Assembly (NCBI RefSeq): GCF_020520425.1
Contig: NC_079491.1
Span: forward strand, 9,349,143-9,413,142
Length of the DNA: 64,000 nucleotides
From: Spinacia oleracea
Lineage: Eukaryota; Streptophyta; Magnoliopsida; Caryophyllales; Amaranthaceae
Reading direction: 5' to 3'
Positions within the stretch are counted from its first letter, which is position 1. Each line of letters starts with the position of its first letter. The notes under the pieces are model-generated. The model made no database searches. It worked only from the letters and a program-made list of their open reading frames with translations, and was not told where the DNA came from. The position numbers and the translations under genes were made by a program. This document shows, one piece after another, positions 19,047 to 62,611 of this stretch.

Positions 19047-20856
19047 TCAAGTAATTAGTATCCCATTAACTTCACAGACTTCTCCATTCTTTATGACAGT
19101 TGCTTCCTCCACTTCCTCCCTGACTTGTACTTCATCAGCTTTCTTCTCATTCACCCGCAGCTGTTTAGCCTGTACTTCCACCGTGACTGGTGGCTCATCA
19201 GCTTTCTTCTCACCCTCCTGTATCTCTGCAACCTGTGTTTCCACCGTGACTGGTGGTTCTTCATCAACTTTCTTCTCACCACCTGTAGCTGTGCAGCCTG
19301 TGCTTCCACTCTAACTGGTGGTTCATCAGCTTTCTTACCCACCTGCAACAGAGCCGCTTCTGCCTCCTCCTTCGCCTTCCTCTCCAACCTCCTCTTCTCC
19401 AAGGCAACCGCCTTAGCCTCCTGTTCTTTCTTAGCCTTCTCCAAGGCACAAACCAGATTCCCGAGACATATATCAACATCATCATCAGGAAACTTAGGCA
19501 ACAAATTCTCAGCAACATCAGCAGGTGTCATTTTAGTCACATCCAACAAAGCTTTAATCACCTCAAACTTAGAATTCTCTGTCACCAACAAATAATTCTT
19601 AGCAAGAAGTTTAAAAGCTTCAAATCCACAATAAGACAGTTCAATATGCTTATCCATCCTTCCTGCTCTTATCAATGTCGGGTCCAACTTCCCTACATGA
19701 TTCGTTGTAAACACTATAATCCTCTCCCCACCAAGAGCTGACCATATTCCATCAGCAAAATTCAGCAACCCAGAAATAGTTACAGAGCTGTTCCTGCTAG
19801 CAGTAGAAGCACTCGTATTAGTACTACTATTACCAGTACTAGCAATGTTGGGTTTGTTCCTGTCATCCCTTCTACCAGTCAAACTAAGCGAGCAATCAAT
19901 GTCTTCAACCGCAATAAGCGAGCAATCAATGTCTTCAACCGCAATTATAGACCTGCTAGTGGTGTTAATCAACAGAGACCTCAACTGGGTGTTATCTGTT
20001 GCAGCAGTTAACTCAAGATCATACACATCATACTCCAATAAGTTAGCCATATATAGCAGCAATCATTGTAGATTTCCCAGTTCCTGGTGGCCCATACAGT
20101 AACTAACCCCTCTTCCACGCTTTCCCAATCCTTGAATAATAAGCTTCACTGTCTCTAAACTTCAACAAATCAGCAACAATCTCCCTCTTTTTTTCAGGGT
20201 CCATTGCCAAAGTATCAAATGTTGCAGGATGATTAAACTCAACAGGGTTCCATAACGAATCAGGATTGTGATAAACATTCCTTCCTAGCTACAGATAATC
20301 CTGCTTTGTTCAAGAACAACTTCCTTGTCCTGCTACACTCTCGAATCTTCTTCCCTTCGCTAATCACATGATCTAAATACTTCCCACTTATAATCTCTTT
20401 ATACTTTTTGTGGAAAACAAGCTTGTAACTCCTTCGATCGAAAGGCATGTTTGTTGTTGCTCTCTGTAATCGGAACGTCCACCATACTGTAACCCCATTA
20501 AACTTATCAGTCATCTCCTCATTAGCATCCATGGTAAGGACTCTTTTCTCTCCCAAAAGAGAAGATAGTCGGAGTCTTTTCGCATTCTTCGACCCGTTTT
20601 TGCCTAAATAAGCCTGGATTGATTCGAAATCATCGTTCCGGGTGGGGAGGATTCCGGGTGAAAACTCGTCAATGGTGAACATTACGTCGAACAGTTGGTG
20701 GGTGAACTGATAAATTATTCGGCGGAGTTGATACGGTGCGTATTGTTTAAGAAGAGACATCAAGAACACCATTGTTGCGAGTGCAGAGCTTGTGTTTACC
20801 CAATTTGCTAGGGTGTTGCTACGCCGGTTCGCCATTGTTTTGGTAGGTTTCGCCAT
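19047..20856 (-). pseudogene. BCS1-like / AAA-ATP1 (HSR4-type) AAA-ATPase, broken
   Basis: In plants this family comprises single-exon AAA-ATPases at mitochondria or ER. From 20856: N-terminal membrane segment (~residues 25-45), an AAA-associated domain to ~180, then a frameshift near 20275. The next frame carries NPDSLWNPVEFNHP and KAWKRG, then breaks at 20104 before Walker A (LYGPPGTGKSTMIAAI), followed by a stop. A third frame from ~20050 carries Walker B (IIAVEDIDCSL) and LIRAGRMDKHIEL with the arginine finger. The Walker B segment is exactly duplicated by two 30-bp units (19886-19915, 19916-19945). The C-terminal tail has degenerate EKKADEPPV repeats with another frameshift near 19275, ending at a stop at 19047. 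At least three frame breaks argue against function unless the assembly is at fault. Confidence 0.85.
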
Positions 20857-21168
20857 TGTTATGGACTAGCGTTTTCTAAAAGAGTCAAACAATTTTTTAG
20901 GGTTTTCTAAAAGAATTCAAACTTTAAGATGAATATATAGCCAATATAGGGTAACTGGTAAGGACTTGGAAGATTTGGGCGTAAGACTACAACTTCACTT
21001 ATATAGTTTGCGGGTACGCGCGCTTAGAAATTAGAACGAATTGTAATTAGTCAATTACTTTTATTTTGTAAAGTAAAATGTGTCAAAAAAATGACCTTAT
21101 AAAATTACATTAATATTACTAAATAATTAATTAATAATTAAATACACCGCTATATACCAAAAGTGATA

Positions 21169-22008: not shown

Positions 22009-22987
22009 AAATTTTGGATTGAATTTCATTTTAGATTTATTTTTTAATTTTTAGAGTATTTATTTTTTGATGAAGTTGTATATACGTAACATTAGTAATT
22101 AATAAAAAAAATATCTACGTGGCACCCGACTTTTTTTTTCAAAAATAATTTTAAAATCTTATTTTTCATTGTCTGAAACCGTTAGATTTCCTAAGTGGCG
22201 CTCTATTATTGGAATAGTGTTTGATTTTGGATGAATTTTATTTTAGATTTATTTTTTAATTATTATAGTGTTTGATTTTGGGTTGAATTGTATATATTAG
22301 TAATTAATTAATTAAAATATCTATGTGGCTCTAATTAATTATCTACGTGGCACTCTATTTCTTTTTAATACAAAAATAAATTAGAAATCTTATTTTTCAT
22401 TGGCCGAAATCATTAGATTTCCTACGTGGCGCTTTAATAATTTTGCAAATATTTCTCCTTTATATATATAAATATATTTTCGAAATATTTTTTTTCATTG
22501 GCCGAAACCAGTATATTTCCTATGCGGCGCTCTATTATTGTATTAGTGTTTGACTTTGGCCAAAATTTTATTTTAGATTAGTGTTTGATTTTGGATTAAA
22601 TTTTGTTTTAGATTTATTTTTAATTATTAGAGTATTTGATTTTGGACGGAGTTGTACATATTATTAATTACGGATTTTTCATGAAATACCCCTCAATTTT
22701 CACGAAATTCACCAAATGCCCCTCAACTTTCAGAAATTCACCAAATGCCCCTCACCTTTAATATAATACCCAAACTACCCTTACTAATGACGCGCCGTTA
22801 GTCCGCCGTTAGTCTGCCGTTAGCCTACTTTTCTAATTCACCAAATGCCCCTACAATGTAACTTATTTCACCAAATACCCCTATTTTAAAATATAATTCA
22901 CCAAATGCCCAAATGTAAAAATTACCTTTTTAAAGCCCAACGGCTAGTTTTTTGGGATTGAAAAATAGCCGTAGCTTATTGTTTTAG

Positions 22988-22995
22988 TATAAATA
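22988..22995 (+). promoter_or_regulatory. Putative TATA box just inside the left MULE terminal repeat
   Basis: TATAAATA stands 66 bases before the ATG at 23061, a normal plant spacing for a short leader. It suggests outward-to-inward transcription from the terminal repeat. Weak on its own in AT-rich DNA. Confidence 0.35.
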
Positions 22996-23060
22996 ACCCT
23001 GTTCTGAGTGTTTATTTAGTCACCAAATTGTTTTGTTGTAGTTTCATCTCATTTTGTGTC

Positions 23061-23234
23061 ATGAGTTATCATTCAAAATCATCATCCACACATAATGAGT
23101 CCACATATGTTAGAGTCCCAAATAAAATCTGTTATCGTGGGAGAAAATTTGTCATTCGTAGCTCCGATACAACACTCATTCCACAAAGGGTATACTACAA
23201 GTGTGATCCAAGCAACAATGGCGAATATGCTTAA
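23061..23234 (+). CDS. Short ORF inside the MULE, possible degenerate GRF-type zinc finger
   Basis: Codes for 57 residues starting MSYHSKSSSTHNES. Residues ~22-52 (KICYRGRKFVIRSSDTTLIP, then YYKCDPSNNGEY) resemble a GRF zinc finger, whose pattern is roughly CxCG...SxT..NPGR.(Y/F)..C. The second cysteine of the first pair is Arg here, so zinc binding would be impaired. The downstream part expected in GRF proteins is absent. The match is by eye; it may be a decayed gene fragment. Confidence 0.35.
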   Translation: MSYHSKSSSTHNESTYVRVPNKICYRGRKFVIRSSDTTLIPQRVYYKCDPSNNGEYA

Positions 23235-23514
23235 ATATGATGTTTTTGATCAATACTACATATTGTTTCAGTATATCTGTCACTATATGAAGTTATTTTT
23301 GAATGGTGAATATGATCATTATGATGTTTTTGAATGGTGAATATGCTTAATCTAGTTTGATAAATGATGTTTTTTTGTGTGTTGAATATGCTTAATCTGT
23401 TGCTGATATTTTTAGTACACTTTATTTCTGACACATCTGAAAATATTAGTAGCAGAAATGCTAGATTGATTACAATTTCACGAGGAAGCAGTTTAGTTCC
23501 CAAATATGGAGTAT

Positions 23515-24132
23515 TTAACAAGAGAAATACGCAACAAGGCAACACAAGTAAGCATCACGAGTAGCTGCTTCAATTTGTTGTAAAGACAACATAGTAGCAC
23601 CCCAACTTCCTAGAGGTGCTGCAGGACCTTTAAGCACGTACAAAAACAATTCTTTACCCGGTGTAAATAGATTCGTCAAATATTGCAATCCAAATATTTT
23701 GAACTTTTCATTGGTCTGTTTTTTATCCTGTTTAACAGTTACAACCAATTCACGCAAATCAAAAGCATTCCTGCATTGAATCCCATAATCTCTGTTCAAC
23801 GCTTTAAGACAGTTGTTCATTTTAACAGCAACAAAGGTAAGCTCTTGTCTTTGGAAGAACTAAGCCAGTGAACAAATAGGTTTATTAATCCGCAACAACT
23901 GGATAATCAAGCAATTGTCGAAGAAAAACAGCTTCACTATGGCAACTTTTTCAGCAAGTTGGTGTTTGGTGTCATCTTGACAGTAGTGTCTTTCGATGTC
24001 TAGTCCTATTATGGACATGTGGTTGTCGCTAGAGCTACGGATTTTTGACATCAACTTCCCCAAACTATGATTAAGCTCAGTTATGGTGTAAACTAATGTT
24101 GTATTCACATCTAATAATAAAAAGACTCTCAC
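23515..24132 (-). pseudogene. Werner-type 3'-5' exonuclease (DEDDy, RNase D fold) fragment captured in the MULE
   Basis: Read on the minus strand: GLDIE (exo I, DxE), IVKLFFFDNCLIIQLL, an in-frame TAG at ~23863-23865, then FFQRQELTFVAV, KALNRDYGIQCRNAFDLREL, and WGATMLSLQQIEAATRDAY near the end. Order and spacing fit plant Werner-exonuclease-like proteins. Apart from the single stop the frame is open for ~205 codons. The exo II aspartate position reads NN and the exo III tyrosine position reads Ala (IEAATRD), so catalysis should be lost. No ATG precedes residue 28 of the frame (24051). The antisense orientation relative to the TATA-bearing left end is noted. Confidence 0.65.
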
Positions 24133-24599
24133 TTGTCTTTAAAAAAATGGAGAGAGAGAACCCAACCCCAACCAAACCCCAACCCCAACCAATGGACAAT
24201 TGTTAGCCGGAGAAATCACAGAAACGCCACCAATAAATTAGCACGGAGAACCTGCTTCATCAATTTCCTCCCCCATAACACCAGCCGACAAGGACTGTTC
24301 CTTCTTTTCGGCCGACATACACATGCCCAAAAACTAGCCGTTGGGCTTTAAAAATGTAATTTTTACATTTGGGCATTTGGTGAATTATATTTTAAAATAG
24401 GGGTGTTTGGTGAAATAAGTTACATTGTAGGGGCATTTGGTGAATTAGAAAAGTAGGCTAACGGCGGACTAACGGCGTGTCATTAGTAAGGATAGTTTGG
24501 GTATTATATTAAAGGTGAGGGGCATTTGGTGAATTTCTGAAAGTTGAGGGGCATTTGGTGAATTTCGTGAAAATTGAGGGGTATTTCATGAAAAATCCG

Positions 24600-25575
24600 T
24601 ATTAATTAATTAAAATATCTACGTGACACCTAATTAATTATCTACGTGGCACTTGATTTTTTTTAATTCATTAATAAATTAGAAATCCTATTTTTCATTA
24701 GCTGAAACCAATAGTAATCCTAGGTGGTGCTCTAATATTTCAGCAAATATGTCTCCTTTATATATATATATTAGATTAGTGATTTTGAAGAATTCTTTTA
24801 ATTAAAATCAAAAAAATTATCACTAAAAAAATAGACAACTTTTACGTATATATAGGTAACTTTTAAACATTTTAAGTTAACTTTTTAATCCGGTATACAA
24901 TATTGATAAAATATATTGATGAGAAATAATGGTCGTGTGTTGTATTATTCGTGGCATACGTCTCTTTATATTAAAAAAATAGATATCACGCCCTTCGTAG
25001 GTTTCCTAAGTAGACTTCTATCTTATATCATACATCCCAGATATAACACAAGTACACAACCCTACCATATACTACCTCTGTTTCATAAAGTTTTTTACGC
25101 TTTGAAAAATCTGTCCAAAAATCAAAACTTTGACTATAAATTCTCACTATTATATCTATAAAAAAATTATCATGAGATATATCTTGTTAGATTCGTCTCA
25201 AAATATATTTTATAAATATCAACTTTTTATATATTTTTTACATGCATAATTGAATATTAACGGTCAAACATTACACCGGAGTCCGTGCAAATAGTAAAAG
25301 TACAATATTATATGGTTAGGATAACTCCATTATCTTCAAATAAATATTTATGGTACATTATTTATAAATAAGAATTTGTGTTTGAAAAATTATTTTCATT
25401 AAATAATATCTAAAAGATTTGTAAAACGGAAATTGAACTAGGAAAATTTTTGAAAATCGGATTTGGTGAATAAATAAATACTATACTTAAAAGTTATTAA
25501 CTTGTTAGTACTTATTTGCCGGTTATCAATAATAATCCTTAAGCTTTTGCCTCACAATTGTATTCTAGGTCGAAG
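24600..25575. other. Intergenic: end of host element, partial family R repeat, MITE-like sequence
   Basis: 24609-24775 is the right part of the element at 21843. 24776-24920 is a partial family R repeat (GATTTTGAAGAAT, ACAACTTTTACGTATATA). 25072-25295 (CTACCTCTGTTTCATAAAG ... CACCGGAGTCCG) looks like an old MITE with decayed termini. The rest is AT-rich upstream sequence of the F-box gene. Confidence 0.45.
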
Positions 25576-26805
25576 ATGAAGAACAAGAGCGGGAACAGGA
25601 AGAGGAAATTCACATGGGACGATGAATTGCCGGAGCACAGCTATCTTCCGACGGAGTTGTTAACGGAGGTTTTAGCGAGGTTGCCGGTGAAAACCCTTGT
25701 CATATTCAGGCTTGTCTGTAAACTTTGGTGCTCAATTATCGATTCCTCTGATTTTATTTCCATGCATCTTAATGTTTACAACAAAAACAGTAGTCGTCAT
25801 CATCATGTATTAGCTTTGTTAGCGTTTCGCAGTCGTTACGAATTGACCGTTCGTCCAAGTGACTCATCTAGGAAAACTGGTGACCTTGGTAGAATTCCTG
25901 GGTCATACCAGATTGTTGGAAACTGTAATGGGTTGATGTTGATGAAGAAGTACCCTTCCTCTCCAAAAGAATTAGTATTGTATAACCCCTGTATTAGAAA
26001 GTCATTGATTCTCCCTACTTGTCCTTTAGAATATGCTGTTTATATTTTAGGATTTGCACCTTCTAGTAATGAGTATAAGGTATTTGCCTGTAAATTTTCC
26101 GGCAGGTTTAGCTCTGAAAATTTAGAGGAGGCGACAATTGCAGTATATTCCTTGAATGATCGCCAATGGAGGGTTAAACCCAATTGTTGGACGAATATTT
26201 GGAGTTGGGGTCGAGTAGACTTAACTGATGGAAAACGACGTGTTTTCTGTGGAGGTGTTTTGTACTGGATTGGATGTGCGTCTAATCATCTTCATATTAT
26301 GTGTGTGGACTTTGAGGTTGAAAAATTCAGCATTATGAAATTGCCAGAGGCTGCCAAAGGAAGTAATATTATTGTCAAGTTTCTTTTCGTCCTTGGTGAG
26401 TCGTTAGCAATTTATGTTATGTCCTTAAAAAGTAGCCGTATATTTGTTATGGAAAAGGATCATCAACATAATGTTGATCCGTGGAGGCTTTGGTTTCGTG
26501 GTGATCCAGATTTAATTAACTCTCCCTTTCTTCTGAGCAATCGATTTATCAATTTAGGATACCCGTTTTCAAAGATTTTGTACGTTGAAGAGACCAATGC
26601 GTTCTTGATTGTGATTGAAACAAGTAGAGTGAGAAAGTCGTATCGACTGATATCTTATAACATCAAAACTCACCAACAAAAAGAGTTGATAAAACCGCGC
26701 AATGCTATGTATTTAGATACTTATGTGGAGAGCTTGGTGTTGCACGCACAAAAGAATTCAAGGACAGAGTTCGACTTCCTTTCCCTAATGGAAGAGAGGA
26801 CTTGA
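25576..26805 (+). CDS. F-box protein with F-box-associated (FBA/kelch-like) domain, copy 1
   Basis: 409 residues, no intron. The F-box lies at residues ~17-55 (SYLPTELLTEVLARLPVKTL then FRLVCKLWCSIIDS), which in the family binds SKP1 in an SCF ubiquitin ligase; the substrate is unknown. An FBA-type region (~100-390) includes GSYQIVGNCNGLM, LYNPCIRKSLILP and GFAPSSNEYKV. The ATG at 25576 is chosen because the paralogue at 38398 starts at the same residue. The paralogue is ~80% identical by eye. The last codons (FDFLSLMEERT) differ from the other copy because of a frameshift there. The stop falls inside a 247-bp segment repeated at 28960-29204. Confidence 0.88.
   Translation: MKNKSGNRKRKFTWDDELPEHSYLPTELLTEVLARLPVKTLVIFRLVCKLWCSIIDSSDFISMHLNVYNKNSSRHHHVLALLAFRSRYELTVRPSDSSRKTGDLGRIPGSYQIVGNCNGLMLMKKYPSSPKELVLYNPCIRKSLILPTCPLEYAVYILGFAPSSNEYKVFACKFSGRFSSENLEEATIAVYSLNDRQWRVKPNCWTNIWSWGRVDLTDGKRRVFCGGVLYWIGCASNHLHIMCVDFEVEKFSIMKLPEAAKGSNIIVKFLFVLGESLAIYVMSLKSSRIFVMEKDHQHNVDPWRLWFRGDPDLINSPFLLSNRFINLGYPFSKILYVEETNAFLIVIETSRVRKSYRLISYNIKTHQQKELIKPRNAMYLDTYVESLVLHAQKNSRTEFDFLSLMEERT

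Positions 26806-30860: not shown

Positions 30861-30893
<33 letters not shown>
30861..30893. repeat. (ATT)n microsatellite at the 3' end of the RLE retrotransposon
   Basis: Eleven ATT-type units directly abut the element. The same motif bounds the other end at 35110-35139. Confidence 0.95.
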
Positions 30894-30944
30894 GGGAAAC
30901 CACCAAAACGTTACAAGCTTAACAAGCTACAAAGATCAAGTAAA

Positions 30945-33195
30945 CTACAAGAAGTTGGTGGGGAGCCGAGATACAATCTGGGCCCCCACTCCTCTAGCTA
31001 TGGCGAACCCGATCCTGCTGAAAATGTGGGCAGCTGCCCGTGCCCCTATGTCTTGAGCCCTGGAGTACGTCTGGACCCGTTTCAGCAACGAAACAGCCCC
31101 TTTCTCTAACTCCCCAAAAGAAGAGAAGGAAAAAGGAAAGAAACCGTAACCCAAAGCCCTACAACGTGCCACATACTTAACCTGCTTCCGCTGCGCAGCA
31201 ACCGCCACAACCCGACCCGGAACGAAGTCTGACAACCCAGATTGCGTCATAGGTGAAGACCCAGTCAAGTCAACACACACATCTACACCGCCATCCCAAG
31301 AATAAAGCAATATATCTGCAGGACGAAGAGCTCCATCACTCTCACTAGTCAGCCCAACATCAACCTCCTTACGAGCAGAAATCCCCGACCGATAGCAAAT
31401 ATCCAAAAGGGTATCACGAACAACATTATGTCGATGTTTGATACCCACAATCCCAGCACAAGACACGACATGATCCCCATAAATGTCCCCGTCGAAAACC
31501 CGAGAGCAAGCAGAACACGGCGTCGAATCAGAGAACAACGGAATACCCAACCGATAGCAAAGAACCGAACGATAAGCCTTACCGTTCATAGTCTGGCCTA
31601 ACCCCGAGATGGGGACTGCCCGCAACCAAGCTGAGGAGTGATCCCCCTGCTGAGATTTCCATAGGGCAACAAGACGTGAAGATAAGGAGTAGGCGGATTC
31701 CGCATCAGCAATAACCTTCGTGAAATATATGTCTGCCAATTTCTTCATGAGTCTGGGGGCAGCGATCTCACTAGGGCTACGCATAAGGTCGGTCTCCACG
31801 GTCCTGTTGAAAAGACCAAGAGCATCATCAAAGGCCGGTCCCGGACCTTCAACACCTGAAAGCCAAAGAAGCAAATCCTGCAAACCAGAAGACTGCAAAC
31901 GGGATGCAAGAAAAGCATAATGCCGAACATCACCAGCTGAATAAACACCCAATCCTCCATAAGAATAAGGCAAGGTGGCAAGGCGCCATTGCCAGTCACC
32001 GAACCCAGGTCCCGAAGCAACCACGATGCGCTCTAAAGAAGCCCGCAGAGCCACATCAAAAGATAATTGGGCCGCTTCGAAAAGATGAGGCGAACAAGTG
32101 CGCATAGCAAAGTATAGTTTAGAAACTCCAGTACACGCACGAAGAAGCAACAACTCACACTGGGGATCATTAAGCTTGGCTACAGCATCCATCAACACAA
32201 CAGTCTTCGACACACGCTGCGAAACAACCGCCTTACAAAAAGAGGAATCCGTACTGACTGGGCCACCAAGCAACTTAACACCAAGCTCAGGACGAGCAAT
32301 ATCCGTAGGAAAGACACCCTCTAGACGACAACGTGGGTCCTCCGAAGGCCAGAAAACCTCCGTCTTCTCAACATTAACATGGAGACCTAAACGAGGACCC
32401 TCCTCCAAAATCAACTCCAAGACCTGCCCAACCACCAAAGTGTCACCAACAATAGTGCCATCGTCCAAGTACCATGCCTGAAAAGATAGATCAAATGAGT
32501 CTCGAATTCGACACACCAATGGATGTAGAACCAGAGAAAAAAGCAAAGGGCCGAGAGGATCCCCTTGCTGCACACCCTGACAAGACCACAAGGTATGCTC
32601 CCCATAATACAGCCGCGCTGGAGAAGAGTAGCAGAATTCAACCCAACGCGAAAGAGCAGGACAATGGAGCCGAACCTCACGCAACAAAGCCGATCGATCA
32701 ACTAAATTGAAAGCATTCTGAAAATCCACCAATAATATAGATAGGCCAACATCGGCCCCACGAGCCTCAACCAACCGATTGACAGCATGGAGAATGGCCT
32801 CACCACCTGCTGGAACCCCAACTCCAAACTGCAGACCTCCAAAGTAGTTTCCTAAACGCGGACCAATCAAAGCAGCCCCGACCTTAGAAACAAGGCGCCT
32901 CCAAATAGTACCCACAGCAATAGGCCGAACACCCCCACCAGGCTTAACCAATGGCGTAAGAGGAGCACTAGCAATGTATCCTCCAAGCTCAGCGGGACAC
33001 TTTCCAGCAAGAAAGAGATTAACTACCTGAGTGATAGCATCCACCAACTCATCAGAAACAGCTACAGCAGCACCACCCAAGCAATCCAAAAGGTGCTGAG
33101 CACGCAAGCCATCTCTACCGCACGAAGTACCACGCGGAAAGCCCATAATCTGCTCCAAAACAACAGCGGAGAAAGCAGAAAGGTTGATGATCAAC
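30945..33195 (-). CDS. Reverse transcriptase and restriction-like endonuclease part of the RLE retrotransposon
   Basis: About 750 codons. RT motifs in order: GVRPIAVGTIWRRLVSK, LLVDFQNAFNLVDR (catalytic Asp), GVQQGDPLGPLLFSLVLHP, WYLDDGTIVGD (YxDD-type box with LDD) and the thumb region to ~400. Near residue 600 is a CSACSRVF...H...C knuckle followed by RHNVVRD. Then RPADILLYSWDGGVDVCVDL, matching the RPD...D(V/L)T signature of restriction-like endonucleases in R2/R4-type elements. The stop at 30945 is ~50 bases from the TAA tract. It continues the frame at 34137 after a one-base shift near 33,187. All catalytic boxes I can judge are intact. Confidence 0.82.
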
Positions 33196-34137
33196 AGGGA
33201 TATCCGGTAAGGTAGGGACCGGAACAGAAGGGTGCTTTGCTTGTAAATCTGCAAGAGTAGCATCATCGTAAGGGGCAAGACCTGAGGAAGAAAGGACCCG
33301 AACGGCAGCAGTGTAGTGACCGTCAGAAATCTTTCTCTTGCATTGCTTAATATTACGCTCCGTCAAATCATGGTCATCGTCAACATCCAATAGAGAGGGA
33401 GACACGCTAGCCAATGTGTCTATGACAAGTTGCTCAGAACCGCCAGGCACACCCCAAGAACGAATAGCAGAGGTGATACACTCCTCCTGTTGCCGCCGCC
33501 TAACACCGGAGGAACACTCACGATTACTCCGTGGTGAAAAAGTCTTGAGGACACAAAGAGGTAACACGAGCAACTGAACCCAACAAGCGATGTCATCTGG
33601 TCTGCAAATCACCTTATCAAGCGCCCCTTTCAGAACTCGCGAAAAACCCAAACGACATTTGGGAGGGATGGATTTCACAGAACGCAACCGCTTAGACCAT
33701 AAAGTGTCCAGAAGAGCAACATCAAAAGAAAAATATTGTTCTCGAGACGCATCAGAAGTAGAGAGCTCGGAAGCAGGAGCTTGAGGTTTTTGAATACCGT
33801 AGAGAGTAAAACGAATAGTACCATCCCCAGAATCAGGTGGGTCCACAAAAACCGTACTAGAACCACTGCCATGCCGACACCTAATACGATGAGTATGCGT
33901 CTTGAAACAATCTCCACATAACCAAATTCCCATACGACGAAAGGTAACCTCAGCCGAAGTAAAAACCTGCAAATTGGTAGTAAGGGACTGACGGGTTACA
34001 TCCCGCACATCAGAGCAACAATGGCGATCCCGTAAGTGAGTGATCAGAGAACTCCTTACCAAACCACGCCCACCGCCATCCTGGCACCCGCTAAGACCCA
34101 CAAAAGGGCAATGAAACTTCTCCACGGTAGCCGCCAT
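33187..34137 (-). CDS. N-terminal part of the RLE retrotransposon polyprotein (zinc finger region)
   Basis: Starts at the ATG at 34137 (MAATVEKFHCPF). Residues 9-39 carry a Cys/His pattern (C...C...H...H in FHCPFVGLSGCQDG and LITHLRDRHC) that fits a DNA-binding zinc finger. A second CGDC...H...C cluster is at ~75-92. Downstream is an Arg/Lys-rich linker and a conserved-looking block SDGHYTAAVRVLSSSGLAPY (~285-304). After PTLPDIPVD the matching continuation moves to another frame. The zinc finger presumably helps bind the target, as in R2-group elements (family knowledge). Confidence 0.7.
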
Positions 34138-35108
34138 ATCAAAGCACGTCAACAACTGGACAAAACAGGAAGAAAACAAAATGAACCCCACACAAAGCAC
34201 CCTTTATGTCCAAAATGAACCCAAATGAACCCCTGCAAATGTACCAACCCCCAGCACCAAAATGTAACAACCCCTACAATTGTAACAACTCCTGCACCAA
34301 GATGAAACAACAAAATTGCCGGAACTGCTGGACAAAGAACCAAAGCAAAACTGAACTGCTGGACAAAGAACCAAAATTGCCGTTAAACTGAATTGCTGCA
34401 AAACAGAACACGCTGCCGAACAACCCACGAAACGGTAAACTGCCGAACAACCCACAATGCACCGCAAAACGGTAAACTTCCGAACAACCCACGTAATCGC
34501 CGGACTCAAAATCCACCACGCTGCCCTAACAGCACCACCCACCTGAATGCCGCCAACAACCACTCGAAAACCGTCGCCTGAAAACAGCACCAAATACTCG
34601 AAAACCGCACCAAAACTGCAGCAAATACTCGAAAACCGCCTGAGAAAGTGGACCGAAACCAAGACCACCACGCCTGAGACCCGCCTGGAAACTGCCGGTG
34701 AACCTTCACCGTACGTAATCGTCACCTAAAACCCGCAATAACCGCCCAGTATTGCAATGAATTATTCGCCGAACACTTGCACCAAACACTTGCTCCAAAA
34801 ACCTTCGTGGGATCGCTGAACCACCGATAAACTCGCCGTAATCTGGTATCGATGTTGCCGGAAATGGACAACCTAAACCTGCGCCTGAACCCCCTGTGAT
34901 ACGCCTGAGAATTGCACTGAAAATGTCGACCAAAACCGCTGAAAATTCTCCTGAGAACTGCACCTATAACCGCCGAATACCTTTGCGGGAACGCTGAACC
35001 GCCGTGGAACCACCGCCGGATAACACTAAACGTCGCGGGGTAGCACTAAACGTCGCCGGAGAAGATGGCGAGGAACACCATCGTGCCCTAATCGCCCTAC
35101 TAGAGAGA

Positions 35109-35109
<1 letters not shown>

Positions 35110-35139
<30 letters not shown>
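35110..35139. repeat. (TTA)n microsatellite at the 5' end of the RLE retrotransposon
   Basis: About ten TTA units directly after the end of the GC-rich leader. Matches the tract at 30861-30893. Confidence 0.95.
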
Positions 35140-38330: not shown

Positions 38331-38397
38331 TTAAAAATACGGTTGGTTATCAATAATAATCCAATTCACAATTGTATTACAAATTTACAAGTCGAAG

Positions 38398-39645
38398 ATG
38401 AAGAACAAGAGCGGAAACAGGAACAGGAAATTCAAATGGCACAATCAATTGCCGGAGCACAGCTATCTCCCGACGGAGTTGTTAACGGAGGTGTTAGCAA
38501 GGTTGCCGGTGAAAACCCTAATGAAATTCAGGCTTGTCTGTAAACTTTGGTGCTCAATTATCGATTCCTCTGATTTTGTTTCTATGCATCTTAATGTTTA
38601 CAACAAAAACAGTATTCGTCATAATCATGTATTAGTTTTGTTAATGTTTGGCAGTCGTTACGAATTGACAGTTCGTCCAAGTGACGCATCTAGGAAAACT
38701 GCCGAAGTTGGTAGAATTCCTGGGTCATACTTAATTGTTGGAAACTGTAATGGGTTGATGTTGATGAAGTTCTCCCCTTGTATAGCAGTGATCGTATTGT
38801 GGAACCCCTGTATTAGAAAGTCATTGATTCTCCCCACTTGTCCTTTAGAATTACCTGATTATATTTTAGGATTTGCACCCTCTAGTAATGAGTATAAGGT
38901 ACTTGCCTGCAAATTTTCCGGCAGGCATAACTCTGAAAATTTACGGGAGGCGACAATTGCAGTATATTCTCTGAATGATCACCAATGGAGGATTAAACCC
39001 AATTGTTGGACGAATATTTGGCGTGTGGGTCCAGTAGACGTAGTTTATGGTATACAACGTGTTTTCTGTGGAGGGGCTTTGTACTGGATAGGATGTGCAT
39101 CTAATCAACTTCGTATTATCTATGTGGATTTTGAGCTTGAAAAATTCAGCGACATGCAATTGCCAGAGGCTGCTAAAGGAAGTAGTATCGTTGTCAAGTT
39201 TCTTTTCGTCCTCGGTGAATCATTAGCAATGTATGTTATGTCCTGTGAAAGTAGCCGTATATTTGTTATGGAAAAGGATCGTCGTAATAATGTTGATCCG
39301 TGGAGACTTTGGTTTCGTGTTGATCCAGATTTAATTAACTCTCCCTCTCTCTCTCCTTTGAGTAATATATTTATCGATGATGGATACCCATTTTCAAAGA
39401 TTTTGTATGTTGAAGAGAGAAATGAGTTCTTGATGGTTGAAATGATTGAAACGAGTAGGAAGAGAGAGTCGTATCGACTAATATCTTATAACATCAAAAC
39501 TCACCAACTAAAAGAGTTGATGAAACCCCGCAATGACATGTATTTAGATACTTATGTAGAGAGTTTGGTATTGCACAAAGGAATTCAAGGCCGTTTGGTA
39601 TTGCACAAAGGAATTCAAGGCCAGAATTTGACATCCTTCCTCTAA
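38398..39645 (+). CDS. F-box protein with F-box-associated domain, copy 2
   Basis: 415 residues, intronless, paralogue of the gene at 25576. F-box at ~17-55 (SYLPTELLTEVLARLPVKTL, FRLVCKLWCSIIDS); FBA region with GSYLIVGNCNGLM, LWNPCIRKSLILP and GFAPSSNEYKV. Probable SCF substrate adaptor; substrate unknown. Near the C-terminus an exact 30-bp tandem duplication (39563-39592, 39593-39622) repeats the peptide LVLHKGIQGR. Compared with copy 1 the coding sequence has lost four bases just before this point, so the last ~25 residues are new. The frame is otherwise fully open and conserved. Confidence 0.88.
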   Translation: MKNKSGNRNRKFKWHNQLPEHSYLPTELLTEVLARLPVKTLMKFRLVCKLWCSIIDSSDFVSMHLNVYNKNSIRHNHVLVLLMFGSRYELTVRPSDASRKTAEVGRIPGSYLIVGNCNGLMLMKFSPCIAVIVLWNPCIRKSLILPTCPLELPDYILGFAPSSNEYKVLACKFSGRHNSENLREATIAVYSLNDHQWRIKPNCWTNIWRVGPVDVVYGIQRVFCGGALYWIGCASNQLRIIYVDFELEKFSDMQLPEAAKGSSIVVKFLFVLGESLAMYVMSCESSRIFVMEKDRRNNVDPWRLWFRVDPDLINSPSLSPLSNIFIDDGYPFSKILYVEERNEFLMVEMIETSRKRESYRLISYNIKTHQLKELMKPRNDMYLDTYVESLVLHKGIQGRLVLHKGIQGQNLTSFL

Positions 39646-55811: not shown

Positions 55812-56186
55812 ACCTTCTAGATGCGAAATAGAAACATCTTAAGTTAGTATAGATGATAAAATAAAGTTACCAGAATACAATTGAGAGATTGTGATTTTGA
55901 GTTTTGTAGTGTTTTGTTAAAAAAAATGTGAGGAATCACTAGAGTCGAAGATCAAAATGATATACTATATAGACTTGGGGTTATTCACGACTACGCATAC
56001 TTATGGTATCCTCAATAATAGGAATAAAAGTGTCTTGAAATTACTTGAGGACAAAAAAGTAACTTTGGACTCGTGTGTTTCATTAGAGGAAGTACGGAAT
56101 AATCTTTTTAATATGGCTCCAATTAAGTCTCCGGGGCCAGATGGAATTCAACCCATTTTTTTCCAAAAACATTGGAATGGTGATCA

Positions 56187-59100
56187 GGTAACAAGTTTCT
56201 TTTTCAAGTCTGTCAAGGAAAGGAAGGCTAACAATCACATTGGTGCACTCAAAAAACAAGATGGCTCCTGGATAGCGGATAAGGACCTTCTCAAGCAGGA
56301 GTTCGTGGATTTTTTTAAAGGGATTTATGCTCAACCGGCGCAACTCACAGAGGAAAGCAAGCTCACTTTGGAGACTTGGCTATCTACGGTTACTCCACTC
56401 TCGGTATCCCAAAAGGAGATACTAGCAGTACCTTTCACGAACCAAGATGTGAGGGACGCTGTATTCAGTATGCAGGATCTTAAATCGCCAGGGCCAGATG
56501 GGGTTCCTCCACTTTTCTTCAAAAAATTTTGGGCTTAAACTCATACTGAGATATGCGGTGCGGTACGGGGTTTCTTCAATGGAGGTCGAATGCTAGCGGA
56601 AACAAATCGCACCTTTATTGCTCTTATTCCTAAAGTTCAAAGCCCGGACTGTGTGTCTAAGTTCAGGCCTATAGGCCTATGTAATTCCTTGTATAAAGTG
56701 ATCTCCAAGTGCTTGGTGATGAGGATGAAAAGAATCATGGGAGACATCATTAGTGAGTATCAAAATGCTTTCGTGCCGGGAAGACTTCTCGTGGATAATT
56801 GTATGATTGCTCATGAGTATATGCAATATGTAAAGAAAAGGAAAAAAGGAAAGGATTTTGCAGGTATTTTGAAGATGGACCTGAATAAGGCTTACCATCG
56901 TATAAGCTGGAGCTTTATTAGGGAGGTTCTCATGGCCTTTGAATTCCCTCAACAATGGATAGATTGGATTATGGAATGTATCACCACTGTGTCTATGGCG
57001 GTTCTTGTCAATGGGGAGGTCACAGAAAATTTCAAGCCCAAGTGTGGTCTCCGTCAAGGCGACCCTTTGTCGCCTTATATTTTCATTATGTGCATGGAGG
57101 TGCTCTCTCGACGTATGCTAGCTTTGCAGGAAATTGGTTCAGGTCGTGGCTTGAAAATTGGAAGACGGTCGCCAAGAATCAATCACTTGTTTTTTGCGGA
57201 TGATGCGTTATTTTTCTTCCATGCAACTCCGGACTCGTGTGTTAATTTGAGGAAGGCTCTGGACGAGTTTAGTCTGATATCGGGTGAGGTGGTGAGTTTG
57301 GAAAAATCTTTTGTCACATTTTCTCCTAACACCCCGCGCAGGTTCATCTCCTTTATGCGCAGGCCCTTAGGAATGAAGAATAAATTCGCAATGGGTACTT
57401 ACTTGGGCTGCCCTATGGATGTGGATGGTAGGAGTTCCCAGAAGTTCGAGTTCCTAATTGACAGAATCGCAAAAAAGCTTTCATCTTGGAAATTCATTTC
57501 TATTTCCCAAGCAGGCAAGATTATTTTGGTGAACAGTATCATTGTAGCCATGGCTTCTCATGTTATGTCTCTCTTCCTGATCCCAAGGGGAAGCCTTAGT
57601 AGAATAACAAGCCTCTTCACCAAGTTTATATGGAGCACTTCAATGGACAGAAAACCCATCTACTGGAGGAGTAGGGCACTTTTGGAAAAACACAAAGAGC
57701 AAGGGGGTTTAGGGGTCCATAATATAAAAAATCTAAACACCGCATTAGTGTGTAAGCAAGCTTGGAGAATCCAGAATAACCCTCAGAGTTTAGTTGCTCG
57801 TATTCTGCTGGGAAAATACAAAAAATCGCCAATATTGATTGCACAAAATAATGGGATTCTAGGCAGGGTGTCGTGGAGTTTTAGGAGTATGGTAAGAGCA
57901 GCCTCAAATTTGAAGTTGGGTATGGGTATGTTAGTTGGGGATGGCAGCAATATTGACATTGAAAGGGATACCTGGGTTCATGGTCAGCGTGTTCAAAAGA
58001 AGGAGGGAGTGTCGCCTAATGTGAAGATGGTTGCAGACCTTTTAACTGATGACTTAAAGTGGAAATCGAGTCTCGTCTGGAGTTGTTTTGAGAGCAATAC
58101 TGCAAAGAATATCCTTGCCATCCACGTTAGTGCTCGGAATCTTGAAGATGAGGTAATATGGAACTCCCTCACCAAGGGATCTTATTCGGTTAGGGAAGGC
58201 TATGCTTTGCTGCAAAATCAGTTAACGGTACAAGGTGACAGCCCATCATTCTGGAAAAAAATTTGGAAAATGAAAATTATACCCAACTGGAAACTATTTA
58301 TGTGGAAGATTTTAAATAAGGCTTTGCCTTCGTGTACCAACCTCCGTGCGAGAGGTGTGGAGTTAGATGTAATGTGCAAGAGTTGTCTTGCGCATGAGGA
58401 GACATTGGAGCATTTATTTCGTGATTGTGAGCAGATAAAGAGAATTTGGAGTACGGGACAAATCGGTTTAAGGATCAACAACAGCGGATCATCATTGAGT
58501 GAGTGGGTCAGACACTACTTGTGGTTCTTTTCGAAGACGGAAGACGGAAGGGACGAAAAGCTAGTGACCTTTGTTGCAACATTATGGAGCATATGGAAAG
58601 CCAGGAATGAGCTTATATTCAGGGATGGCAAGACCACTCCCACACAGATCATGTCTAACATTGATGACAATTACAAGAAGTGTTGGGCTTTTATGGAAGG
58701 GAAGAAGAGGAACTCGTCTGCGCGTGGGATGGTGGACCGCAGGAATAGTGCCCTGGCCTTCTGGGCGGTCGGTTGTCCAAGTGGTTCTACTCCGACTAGC
58801 ATACAGGTGGATGGGTCGTGGAAGAAGACGAAGAAAATATCGAAGTTGGGTTGGACTGCGGGAGCGGGTTGGTTATGTGAGCATGAGGGAACTGTCACTA
58901 GTGGCTCTCAACATATCTTTGCAACTACCCCCCTTCAAGAGGAGGCTACGGCCTTGTGGCTGGCAATTCAATCACTTGCTAATGTGTACTCGAGGGTGGA
59001 TATCCTTACGGATTGCTGTGATCTCGTTACAGCACTTAAACAACCAAGTGACACAAAGCTGGAGATTCGGTCCCTGATAGCGGATATAGTTCTTAGTATT

Positions 59101-59193
59101 AATTCACTTAATTATTTTTGCATTTCTAAAGTCCCCAGGAATGAGGTGTCTAGAGCTCATAACCTAGCTGTTCAAGCTAGGAAAAGAGACTAG
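56187..59193 (+). pseudogene. ORF2 of the inner LINE: reverse transcriptase, zf-RVT, RNase H
   Basis: One frame throughout with a single stop at 56536-56538 after PPLFFKKFWA. RT boxes: RPIGLCNSLYKVISKCL, LKMDLNKAYHRISW (first Asp kept, second changed to His), CGLRQGDPLSPYIFIMCME, FADDALFF. Then zf-RVT (CKSCLAHEETLEHLFRDCEQ) and a C-terminal RNase H domain with VDGSW, QEEATALWLAIQSL and ILTDCCDLV, so the Asp-Glu-Asp triad is present. Stop at 59191-59193. Nearly intact, hence a young insertion. Confidence 0.85.
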
Positions 59194-59243
59194 ATGTGTG
59201 TTTGCTTTTTCCTTCTGCCAAAAAAAAATAAGAATAATAATTA
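56187..59243 (+). mobile_element. Inner L1-type LINE inserted in the outer LINE
   Basis: 5'-truncated copy starting inside ORF2 (GDQVTSFFFKSVKERKANNH) and ending ~50 bases after its stop in an A-rich tail (CCAAAAAAAAATAAG). The tail abuts the outer LINE sequence. No clear target duplication was found; left border placed by loss of outer-LINE similarity, so uncertain by several bases. Confidence 0.7.
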
Positions 59244-59246
59244 GGT

Positions 59247-62212
59247 CCCACTATTTTCAAGTTCTGTAAGGATTGCTTTACCAACGGTTGTATTCCTATG
59301 GAGATCAATCACTCTTATATCGCTTTAATTCCAAAGATTTCTGCTCCCTCTTTTATTACTGAGTTTCGACCTATAGGCCTGTGCAATACTATTTATAAGA
59401 TTATTACCAAGATCATTTCTTCTAGGTTAAAACTAGTCTTAGGTCGAATTGTAAGCCCTCTACAATCAAGTTTTATCAAAGGTAGGATAGAGGATAATGT
59501 GATTTTGGTGAAAGAAATGGCCCATCATTTTCACAAAGCCAAAAAAAGAAATAAAATTATGGCGTTAAAATTGGATATTTCTAAGGCCTACGATAGTTTG
59601 GAATGGGATTTTATACGGGACACTTTAATTCATTTTGACTTCCCTAATAAGATTATACATTTAATAATGTCCTGCATTACTTCTCCTGTGATTTCAGTAC
59701 TTTGGAACGGTGAAATTTGTGATAAGTTTACCCCATCAAGGGGTATTCGTCAAGGGGACCCTCTTTCGTCTTATATTTTTGTTTTATGTCTTGATAGGTT
59801 ATCTTCTATGATTGAAGAAAAAATTAATTCTGGATCTTGGAAACCAATAGCTCTTACTAAGAACATTAAAATGTCTCATGTTTTTTATGCTGACGATGTG
59901 TTTCTTTTTAGTATAGCCTCCATCGACAATATGCATAGCATCATGAATACTCTTGATTCCTTTGGAGAAATGTCTGGTCTTAAAATCAGTATGACCAAAT
60001 CCACTTTGATTTTCCCTCGTACCCTTCATAATTCCATTAGACAGGACATTGCTTCCACTTATGGATTTAAAATCTCTTCATGCTTTGGAAAGTACTTAGG
60101 AGTGGACATTCGCCCCAATAAGTTAAAAATTAGTAATTACCTGTCCCTTCTTGATAAATCTACTACTAAAGTAAGAGGTTGGCAAGCCAAACTTCTAAAC
60201 ATGGCAGGAAGATGTACTTTAATCAAATCTGTCCTTAATTCTCAACCCCTCTATGTCATGCAAACCAATCTGCTTCCTGCTTCTACTATTTATGAGTTGG
60301 AAAAATGTACTAGGAAATTCTTGTGGAATAAACCAGACCAAAATAGATACATGTCCCGTCTTTCTTGGGATAAAATCACTTCTTCTGTTACTTGTGGAGG
60401 ACTTGGGATTAGACGTCTAAAAGAATGGAACTTAGCTTTTATGGCAAAACTAGGGTGGGCCATCCTCACAAAACCAGACAAGCTGTGGGTTAAAGTGTTT
60501 AAAGAAAAGTATATTAAGAAATCAAACTTATGGACTGCATTAGTAACGGAAATCAGTCTCCTCTTTGGAGAGACATTCTCAAGGGACGTAGTGTTTTGCA
60601 AAAAGGTCTAATCATAAATATTGGGAATGGTCAGAATACTTCATTATGGTATCACCATTGGGTTGGGGAAGCTCCTTTATACACTCTTAAAGAGATTAAA
60701 ATTCCAAACTCCAAAGCTCATTGGTTTGTCAGCAAAATCATTCGAAATGGGAGATGGTATTTAAAAGATATAGAACATCTTCTTCCCACTCATATTCAAC
60801 ATCAAATCCTAGCTTATCCTCTCTCTACTACAGATAAGAAAGAAGATTTTATTAGATGGAATTACTCGAAAAATGGAACCTTTAATATCAAATCAGCTTA
60901 TTTTTGTCAAATACATGCTCCCATCTCTTACAATAGTCAGAATAATAACTTTTGGAACTCTATTTGGAAAATCAAAGTGCCTTACAAATATAGAATGTTA
61001 TTATGGAATTGCAGGCATGAAATTCTCCTAGTAGCACAAAATTTGAATAGGTTCATACCAGGCATTAGTCCAATTTGCTCTAGATGCCTTTCAGATACTG
61101 AATCTCATCTTCATCTTTTCAGGGATCGTACCCAATCCAGTATCCTATGGTCCTTTATCTTTTAAAGGATATGGAGGAATGAAAAGTTTGATTTTAGAGC
61201 TTTTTATAATTCCAATTGGAAATCATGGATTGATTTTAATTTATCTTGTTCCATGAATTGGAAAGTTTTATTTGCTGTTGGCATCTGGCACATCTGGACT
61301 TCAAGAAACACCACAGTTTTTGAGTATAAGATGAAAATTTGTTTTTCTCTTTATAACAATTTCTTTGTGGATTGAAAAGGCACTAACTTCATTTTGCAGG
61401 GAAAAGGAATGTCTCAGGTACAGGAAGCTGGAGTTTTCAAGTTTGAATGGATTCCACCAAAACAAGACTTTATGAAGCTTAATGTGGATGGTGCCTGGAA
61501 GTCTGCAACTGAAGCTGGTGGAGGGGGAGTTTTCAGAAGACCCAATGGATCATGGTTTGTTGGTTTTTCTAGCAAATTTAATGTTAATTCTCCACTGGCT
61601 GCAAAGCTATATGCTTTGCGTGAAGGATTGATGATTGCTAAGGACCTCAAGTTTGATAAATTAGAAGTGGAAACAGATGCCATTCAGTTGAAGTTACTGG
61701 TCAGTGATATTCAAGATCAAGCACATCATGAGTTAGGTCCAGTGCTTAGAGAAGTTGCCCAATTGTTGGGCCAGAACTGGACAGTTTCCTTTTCACATAT
61801 TCCTCGTTTCTGCAACAAGGTAGCTCATGATTTAGCTGCTCATTCCATGGTTATGGCAGTGGGTCACAAACTCCATTTCATCATTCCAGCTTGTGCCAAA
61901 GAACATTATTTCAAAGAATTCGATTCTTGCGTCCGAAGGCAAGCTGCCATGGAAAGGAGTTTGGTTCAAGCTGCGAGCAATACAACACAGACTTTGAATA
62001 CTTTTGCTGCATCTTCTTCAGCTTCTGAAATTATTTTCGGATCAATTGTGTCAAACATCAAACAGGCTTTGGAAGTGACTAAAAGCAAGGGTGATGAAGT
62101 GCAGGGGAAAGGAAAGGGTAAAGTTTTTGAGCCTTTCGTTGTTGGTGGTTCAACAGTCTCTAACCCAATTGAGATTGTTGAACTAGAGGATGGTGAAATT
62201 TCCAACAACTAG
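59247..62212 (+). pseudogene. ORF2 of the outer LINE: reverse transcriptase to RNase H, with C-terminal extension
   Basis: RT boxes: FRPIGLCNTIYKIITKI, ALKLDISKAYDSLEWDF, SRGIRQGDPLSSYIFVLCLD, YADDVFLF. A frame change occurs around 60,530-60,600, then zf-RVT (CSRCLSDTESHLHLF), stops at 61163 and ~61373, and an RNase H domain from ~61440 (KLNVDGAW, GGGGVFRR, VETDAIQLKLL). The catalytic Glu position of RNase H reads Lys (PLAAKLYALREGL). After the RNase H is ~100 residues of Ser/Ala- and Lys-rich extension ending PIEIVELEDGEISNN. Not functional as a whole; the segment 61394-62212 (272 codons) is open by itself. Confidence 0.75.
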
Positions 62213-62503: not shown

Positions 62504-62536
62504 ACCAGGATATGCTATTTTTTTAACGCAAAACGA

Positions 62537-62578
<42 letters not shown>

Positions 62579-62611
62579 TCGTTTTGCGTTAAAAAAATAG
62601 CATATCCTGGT
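62504..62611. repeat. Perfect 108-bp inverted repeat with (AT)n core
   Basis: Arms ACCAGGATATGCTATTT... and complement, 37 bases each without mismatch, around 34 bases of AT dinucleotides (62541-62574). Could extrude as a cruciform or mark a very small foldback element. Preceded by another TA tract at 62486-62503. Confidence 0.9.

Follow-up and report, generated by a model that had tools for sequence, protein, structure and literature searches.

A full-length retrotransposon without long terminal repeats (non-LTR) was found in a stretch of 64,000 nucleotides of the spinach genome (Spinacia oleracea, assembly GCF_020520425.1, contig NC_079491.1, positions 9,349,143 to 9,413,142), hereafter the window, and its copies in the same genome were analysed. 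The element very probably belongs to a recently active family that comprises several hundred copies, is resident in (TAA)n microsatellites and would insert by target-primed reverse transcription, and whose single protein would consist of Cys/His motifs, a reverse transcriptase (RT), a CCHC knuckle and a restriction-like endonuclease (RLE). It is a real and recent TAA-targeting element of a flowering plant, of putative RLE type as judged from its motifs. An earlier note, made from the letters of the window, had described an RLE-type-looking element between two TAA tracts, and this was confirmed, both ends abutting (TAA)n in element orientation; the coding order that it gave, from Cys/His motif to RT with an LDD box, CCHC knuckle and RPAD...D signature, was recovered with the motifs located in that order on the minus strand. 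The RT is of the non-LTR type, and 5'-truncated copies of the element occur.

The genome searched comprised 894,210,420 bases in 242 contigs, of which C1–C6 exceed 100 Mb each. A 24-mer near the 3' end of the element was present at 410 exact places, and its reversed control at none. The main sample of copies was obtained with a 401-bp 3' query, for which 40 of 979 first-look candidates were scored; all 40 were full-length matches to the query (L009–L048), with the window copy, L009, counted among them. A second sample consisted of 20 of the 24-mer places, every fifth of the 100 that were listed among the 410, a listing that extends over C1 and a part of C2. The third comprised the copies of ranks 6–19 in a protein search (n = 14). 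According to their coordinates, L091 and L105 of the second sample are the same copies as L046 and L042 of the first.

At the 3' junction, a tract of at least four TAA units, (TAA)4+, begins no more than 30 bp past the end of the element in 39 of the 40 copies of the main sample, window copy included, and such a tract was also found at the 3' end in 14/14 copies of the protein-search sample and at 18 of the 20 places of the 24-mer sample. The share of the window that lies no more than 25 bp from a (TAA)4+ tract is 0.58%, even with the tracts of the element counted, and tracts lie beside most copies examined, so the flanking by TAA is not due to chance. By eye, ATAATAAT is the junction sequence of nearly all copies. 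Among L075–L108 the element stops variably (GTT, GTTTT, ...TTTTCCC) ahead of ATAATAAT, and therefore variation is possible in the 3' end of the RNA or in where synthesis starts. A TCTGATCTGAACTTATTTTTT-type repeat beside TAA adjoins several insertion sites (L029, L038, L044, L046, L047 and L108).

With respect to the 5' end, four copies of the main sample (L009, L010, L013 and L024) are full-length and reach the true end, 20 are truncated or cut, and 16 carry another leader. The position of the 5' end is supported by the pieces matching the 5' 391 bp, 26 of 36 starting no more than three bases from it. TAA was present at the 5' junction of all four full-length copies, the window copy included, and of 13 of the 20 truncated or cut copies, which lack the true 5' end. 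The leader differs among copies that are about 94–96% identical, the BLAST match beginning at element position 957–970 in 16/40; in 15 of these 16 other-leader copies the nearest (TAA)4+ lies 679–1151 bp upstream of the match start, L041 being the exception. The upstream tract of L031 comes after the 3' end of a neighbouring copy, and L031 therefore seems to be inserted in the tail of that neighbour. Among 26 further 5' ends, TAA was found in 21 by script and in 22 by eye, L050 having been misplaced by the motif search. A TTA tract within 30 bp was found at 0/24 and 0/26 of the 5' junctions and 0/40 of the 3' junctions, a test that excludes the leader starts of the 16 copies. The copies reside in (TAA)n in one orientation, with TAA on the sense strand of the element, at every junction tested. 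The flanks beyond TAA mostly differ among copies and some of them share repeats; a common foreign repeat, 86–93% identical over 586–606 bp, lies at the 5' junction of L012, L017 and L032.

The sequence of a site without the element was sought with the repeat that forms the 3' flank of L011, a truncated element with 13 TAA units on its left and eight on its right. From 593 first-look candidates 40 were scored, and the sequence across the site was read in eight relatives. In seven of these the element is absent and 3–8 TAA units are present, and in the eighth, L130, the tract of the same repeat is occupied by an element of a second family (family II). Since empty relatives of one insertion site carry such units, the tract is a target and not just a tail. 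In this comparison L128, near-identical to L011 on both sides by eye, has five units where L011 has 13 units, the element and eight units; this suggests growth of the tract at insertion, although the length of L011's tract before insertion was not seen. An element inserting anywhere and making both tracts itself, through an RNA that ends in UAA repeats and a 5' tract arising by duplication or slippage, would account for the nearly universal 3' tract and for its greater length at L011 than in the empty relatives, and passages of PMC3747384 give TAA repeats as the ending of other LINEs (long interspersed nuclear elements), the I element among them. This explanation is nevertheless very improbable, as it is largely refuted by the empty paralogous sites with their 3–8 units, and TAA is also found at the 5' side of copies without the element's 5' end and around the family II element in a tract of the same repeat. 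As a control, the last 296 bases of the first L1 of the window matched 11 places, and in the five read past the 3' end by eye poly(A) was found in 5/5 and a TAA tract in 0/5; the window's own L1 copy ends in A9 followed by TAAGAATAATAATTAGG, with fewer than four TAA units. The TAA site preference, which the earlier note had derived from a single copy, is thus supported by both sides of many copies and by empty sites. The listing of flanks that it proposed showed TAA to be common to the copies and the outer flanks to be mostly different, so that its alternative of unrelated flanks was not borne out, nor was that of tail slippage, the tract pre-existing in relatives of one site.

The coding region of the window copy is divided into an N-terminal frame of 362 aa (33115–34203, minus strand) and a frame of 805 aa with the RT and the C-terminal part (30945–33362, minus strand), which overlap in different reading frames. 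In L010, L013 and L024 both are contained in one continuous frame of 1085 aa. As other copies keep one frame, and all those aligned to the frame of the window copy show a gap against it, the frameshift is private to the window copy. In a Pfam search of both frames, RVT_1 (E 1.4e-14) was the sole match with an E value up to 1; the N-terminal frame matched no family, so no AP endonuclease match was obtained. The Cys/His columns of the N-terminal stretch were invariant at 13 of 13 positions in 14 copies (background, 108 of 134 columns invariant); they are conserved motifs for which Pfam names no finger, and they would bind zinc. The C-terminal domain is a candidate RLE by its motifs. In the silkworm element R2Bm the catalytic residues are Asp996, Asp1009 and Lys1026, the last of them on a helix (passages of PMC10499050). 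Their candidate counterparts here are two aspartates, one in RPAD and one 15 residues on in DVCVDLT, and lysines 28–31 residues further. The CCHC, RPAD, D and lysine motifs are common to related families; K669 and K672 are invariant in the aligned rows, and the two Asp positions deviate in single rows (L110, L113 and L120).

The kinship of the RT was assessed by searches of the PDB and by a phylogenetic tree. With the single sequence, R2 was the best match (E 3.7e-6), followed at a distance by the best L1 ORF2-type chains (0.055 and 0.11); with a profile of 13 rows the values were 1.7e-8 for R2 vs 3.3e-5 for L1. The margin of R2 over L1 is real but the distance is large, because bacterial group II RTs fall between them (1.5e-4 with the single sequence and 5.5e-6 with the profile). 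The order is reversed for the plant L1 of the window, with human L1 at 1e-21 and R2 at 4.3e-11. Identity of the RT to R2 is 23–27%. The tree was based on ten segments, comprising spinach families, the plant L1s of the window, R2 and human L1, and did not include R4, CRE, NeSL, Hero, Utopia or Dualen. The three spinach families group together (approximate likelihood ratio test, aLRT, 100; ultrafast bootstrap, UFBoot, 99) and apart from the two plant L1s of the window (99.7/100). They adjoin R2 with weak support (aLRT 91.9, UFBoot 57) and human L1 does not join plant L1; for these two reasons the tree names no clade. Of the phylogeny that had been proposed for placing the element, the part with R2 and L1 upheld its position outside the two plant L1s of the window. 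A search of NCBIfam returned one group II RT match, far below its cut-off, and pattern searches of viral contigs and of genome contigs returned matches, none of which was confirmed as a relative.

That the element is a divergent member of L1, the usual LINE of plants (passages of PMC3747384), is extremely improbable. No match to an AP endonuclease, zf-RVT or RNase H was obtained for it, its RT falls outside both plant L1s of the window, a C-terminal RPAD...D domain is present and TAA takes the place of poly(A), in agreement with the earlier claim that it is not of the plant L1 type. The first L1 of the window contains RVT_1, zf-RVT and RVT_3 in Pfam, corresponding to RT, zf-RVT and RNase H domains.

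A similar habit is known from the R4/Dong clade, whose elements insert into (TAA)n or ribosomal DNA; the TAA target, N-terminus and ribozyme of Dong, an element of Bombyx mori, are described in PMC7998251 and PMC3774820. Like Dong, the spinach element has an RT and a candidate RLE and inserts into (TAA)n, but its host is a flowering plant. It works like Dong; being a Dong is not established in this comparison, made by description. True membership of the R4/Dong clade, possibly after transfer from animal to plant, is unlikely. Passages of PMC7998251 report that Dong has an RT and RLE and targets (TAA)n in most insects, molluscs and cnidarians, which would agree with it. On the other hand, Dong-like elements are described there with a Myb/SANT-like domain and no N-terminal zinc fingers, and the spinach element has conserved Cys/His motifs. 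Furthermore, Dong and R4 carry a 5' ribozyme similar to that of hepatitis delta virus (passages of PMC3774820), and Rfam searches of both strands at E values up to 5 revealed none at the 5' end of the spinach element, although a divergent one could escape, and a single sub-threshold chance match. Long residence is also suggested by the coexistence, within this genome, of families that are 40–46% identical in the C-terminal domain. R2 (R2Bm and R2Tg) shows the order of finger, RT, CCHC and RLE that the motifs of the spinach element suggest, and provides the best solved relatives by RT, and differs in its target, which is 28S ribosomal DNA and not a microsatellite. The CCHC spacing of x10–11 differs from the x7–8 given for RLE LINEs in passages of PMC5678591. 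Hero and Togen also carry an RLE, and microsatellites serve as targets for some of these elements, (TG)n in the case of Togen (passages of PMC4640811); they differ, as compared by description, in host and repeat.

The activity of the family was evaluated in a set of 24 sequences that includes the window element itself (L009). The median dN/dS was 0.168 in the 114 of 276 pairs with dS >0.05, five of the 24 sequences have a stop within the compared stretch, and four (L010, L013, L014 and L024) are near-identical to the window copy (dS <0.01). In the protein search, the best 60 of 2958 first-look candidates were scored; they are 95–100% identical and 50 of them lie, by eye, in open frames of at least 1000 aa, a share that is not that of the whole family, and four of the 60, including one of the 50, have stops inside the match. 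The median dN/dS of about 0.17 and the 50 of 60 best-scoring copies in such frames indicate a recent, once functional family. With the divergent C-terminal fragment L034 as query, 151 matches were obtained, with identities down to 41% among the matches listed. Of 18 relatives fetched, 15 have (TAA)4+ within the stretch read; L110 has two units, L121 three and L120 none. L114–L119 and L125 belong to the window family or its near kin (L115 78%, L117 94% and L125 77%, the rest by eye), and the distant relatives (L109–L113, L120–L124 and L126) have the tract in eight of 11 cases. The distant families align to the window protein with 40–46% identity over the C-terminal domain and 54–55% in two longer rows. 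The use of TAA is thus common to families of old divergence, though not to every copy. Among the 100 listed 24-mer places there are six adjacent pairs no more than 6 kb apart, all on the same strand, for 0.28 pairs expected by random placement and at most three in 5000 placements. Element–TAA–element junctions were found at L049, L072/L073 and L084. Those of L072 (on C28) and L073 (on C6) are identical, and one may therefore be a duplicate of the other.

By analogy with R2 and Dong, the protein would bind the TAA tract and its RLE would nick the TTA strand. The freed 3' end would prime reverse transcription of the element RNA, target-primed as in R2, and the RNA 3' end would run into UAA repeats that anneal to the nicked strand. 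Incomplete synthesis would yield the 5'-truncated copies joined to TAA, often via a few filler bases, and slippage or the RNA's own tail would add TAA units; an insertion could therefore leave a new tract for another copy, which fits the head-to-tail clusters. A different division of roles, in which a loosely specific nuclease cuts and TAA is chosen at priming because the UAA tail must anneal to the nicked TTA strand, is in our opinion rather unlikely. As it would predict, one repeat forms both tail and target, in a single orientation and with the common 3' junction noted above; against it, site recognition in R2Bm depends on the N-terminal finger and Myb domains together with the RLE (passages of PMC10499050), and the present data do not separate the two steps. 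It is possible, though doubtful, that the element represents a land-plant RLE lineage outside the named clades which enlarges its own landing sites, each insertion seeding (TAA)n for the next, and which would be a main source of this genome's TAA microsatellites.

Several observations weigh against the interpretation of a TAA-resident RLE element. Most of the copies examined were picked by similarity to the window copy. At the 3' end, (TAA)4+ is missing from L089 and from L046, the copy that recurs as L091 in the 24-mer sample. At the 5' end, seven of the 20 truncated copies lack it; L012, L017 and L032 have the foreign repeat mentioned above, L040 has an imperfect tract, and the genuine exceptions are L045, L046 and L048. 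Five of the 26 further 5' ends fail by script (L050, L066, L067, L069 and L071), with (TA)n at L066 and tracts farther away at L067, L069 and L071. Empty relatives were examined for one site type only, and these are paralogues, not alleles. The clusters could come from segmental or local duplication. A profile of the C-terminal domain retrieved TALE repeats and other chance matches from the PDB and no R2 chain, and the AlphaFold model of a 748-aa frame from the single sequence was useless (mean pLDDT 37.9; last 209 aa, 34.6).

The TAA-microsatellite habit is known from animal relatives of R2 and was not expected in a flowering plant. According to passages of PMC3747384, L1 makes up nearly all LINEs of flowering plants, RTE being present in several species, and 233 L1 and 7 RTE families are tabulated there. 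In spinach, 642 CRE and 22 R2 full-length elements were reported with MGEScan-nonLTR (PMC6337768, Table 1). The CRE set, whose mean length by our own division is 4.6 kb, may include the TAA-targeting family; the label is that of the software and may cover other LINEs, because that table has no L1 row. The passages of PMC6337768 on these elements give no analysis of their RLE, target or clade. Single CRE and R2 entries appear among eight dioecious plants in passages of PMC4865326, and passages of PMC5348765 and PMC7840529 were further sources. Among the titles and abstract openings listed in the literature, Repbase and subscription journals being outside this scope, none reported a characterised RLE element of a flowering plant or one that targets TAA. 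The view of flowering plants as having almost only L1 and some RTE is altered by a young family, of putative RLE type, that targets a microsatellite and has many open copies. It provides a plant system in which to study site-directed retrotransposition and to examine whether microsatellites are created by transposons, and its insertions may have shaped the (TAA)n markers of this genome.

Table 1. Features of the spinach element and its flanking tracts, in window positions.
Feature	Position	Strand	Basis
Full-length non-LTR retrotransposon, 4217 bp excluding TAA tracts	30894..35110	minus	
5' flanking (TAA)n, part of target tract	35111..35139	minus (element orientation)	
5' untranslated region	34138..35110	minus	
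N-terminal part of single protein, from ATG, inner limit approximate	33186..34137	minus	
Candidate DNA-binding finger, Cys/His motif C-x7-C...H-x4-H	34021..34110	minus	
Second Cys/His motif CGDCFKTHTHRIRC	33877..33918	minus	
Two-frame overlap, private frameshift zone of window copy	33115..33362	minus	
Reverse transcriptase core, RPIAVG to KLLGG	32262..32927	minus	Pfam RVT_1; best PDB matches are R2 chains
YLDD of RT	32457-32471	minus	
CCHC knuckle C-x2-C-x11-H-x4-C	31458..31517	minus	
Candidate restriction-like endonuclease domain (RHN, RPAD, DVCVDLT, RKQVKY) and stop codon	30945..31433	minus	motifs, conservation
RPAD motif	31314-31325	minus	
Short 3' untranslated region	30894..30944	minus	
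3' flanking (TAA)n, tail and/or target tract	30861..30893	minus (element orientation)	

The RNA fold z-scores of the element, +1.07 for the 5' 151 nt and -1.51 for the 3' end, were not used. The element is flanked by two F-box genes that are mutually alike (25543–26805 and 38335–39645, plus strand). An AAA ATPase gene with an At3g28540-like lid is present in two frames (19151–20865, minus strand) and contains a 30-bp exact tandem duplication (19885–19945). L1-type elements elsewhere in the window, as indicated previously, are two, side by side (55921–62212). An inverted-repeat element (22660–24610) has arms of about 155 nt that are 96–97% complementary, with minisatellite units of 29–30 bp, and a perfect palindrome of 54+54 nt with an (AT)n centre is located at 62504–62611.

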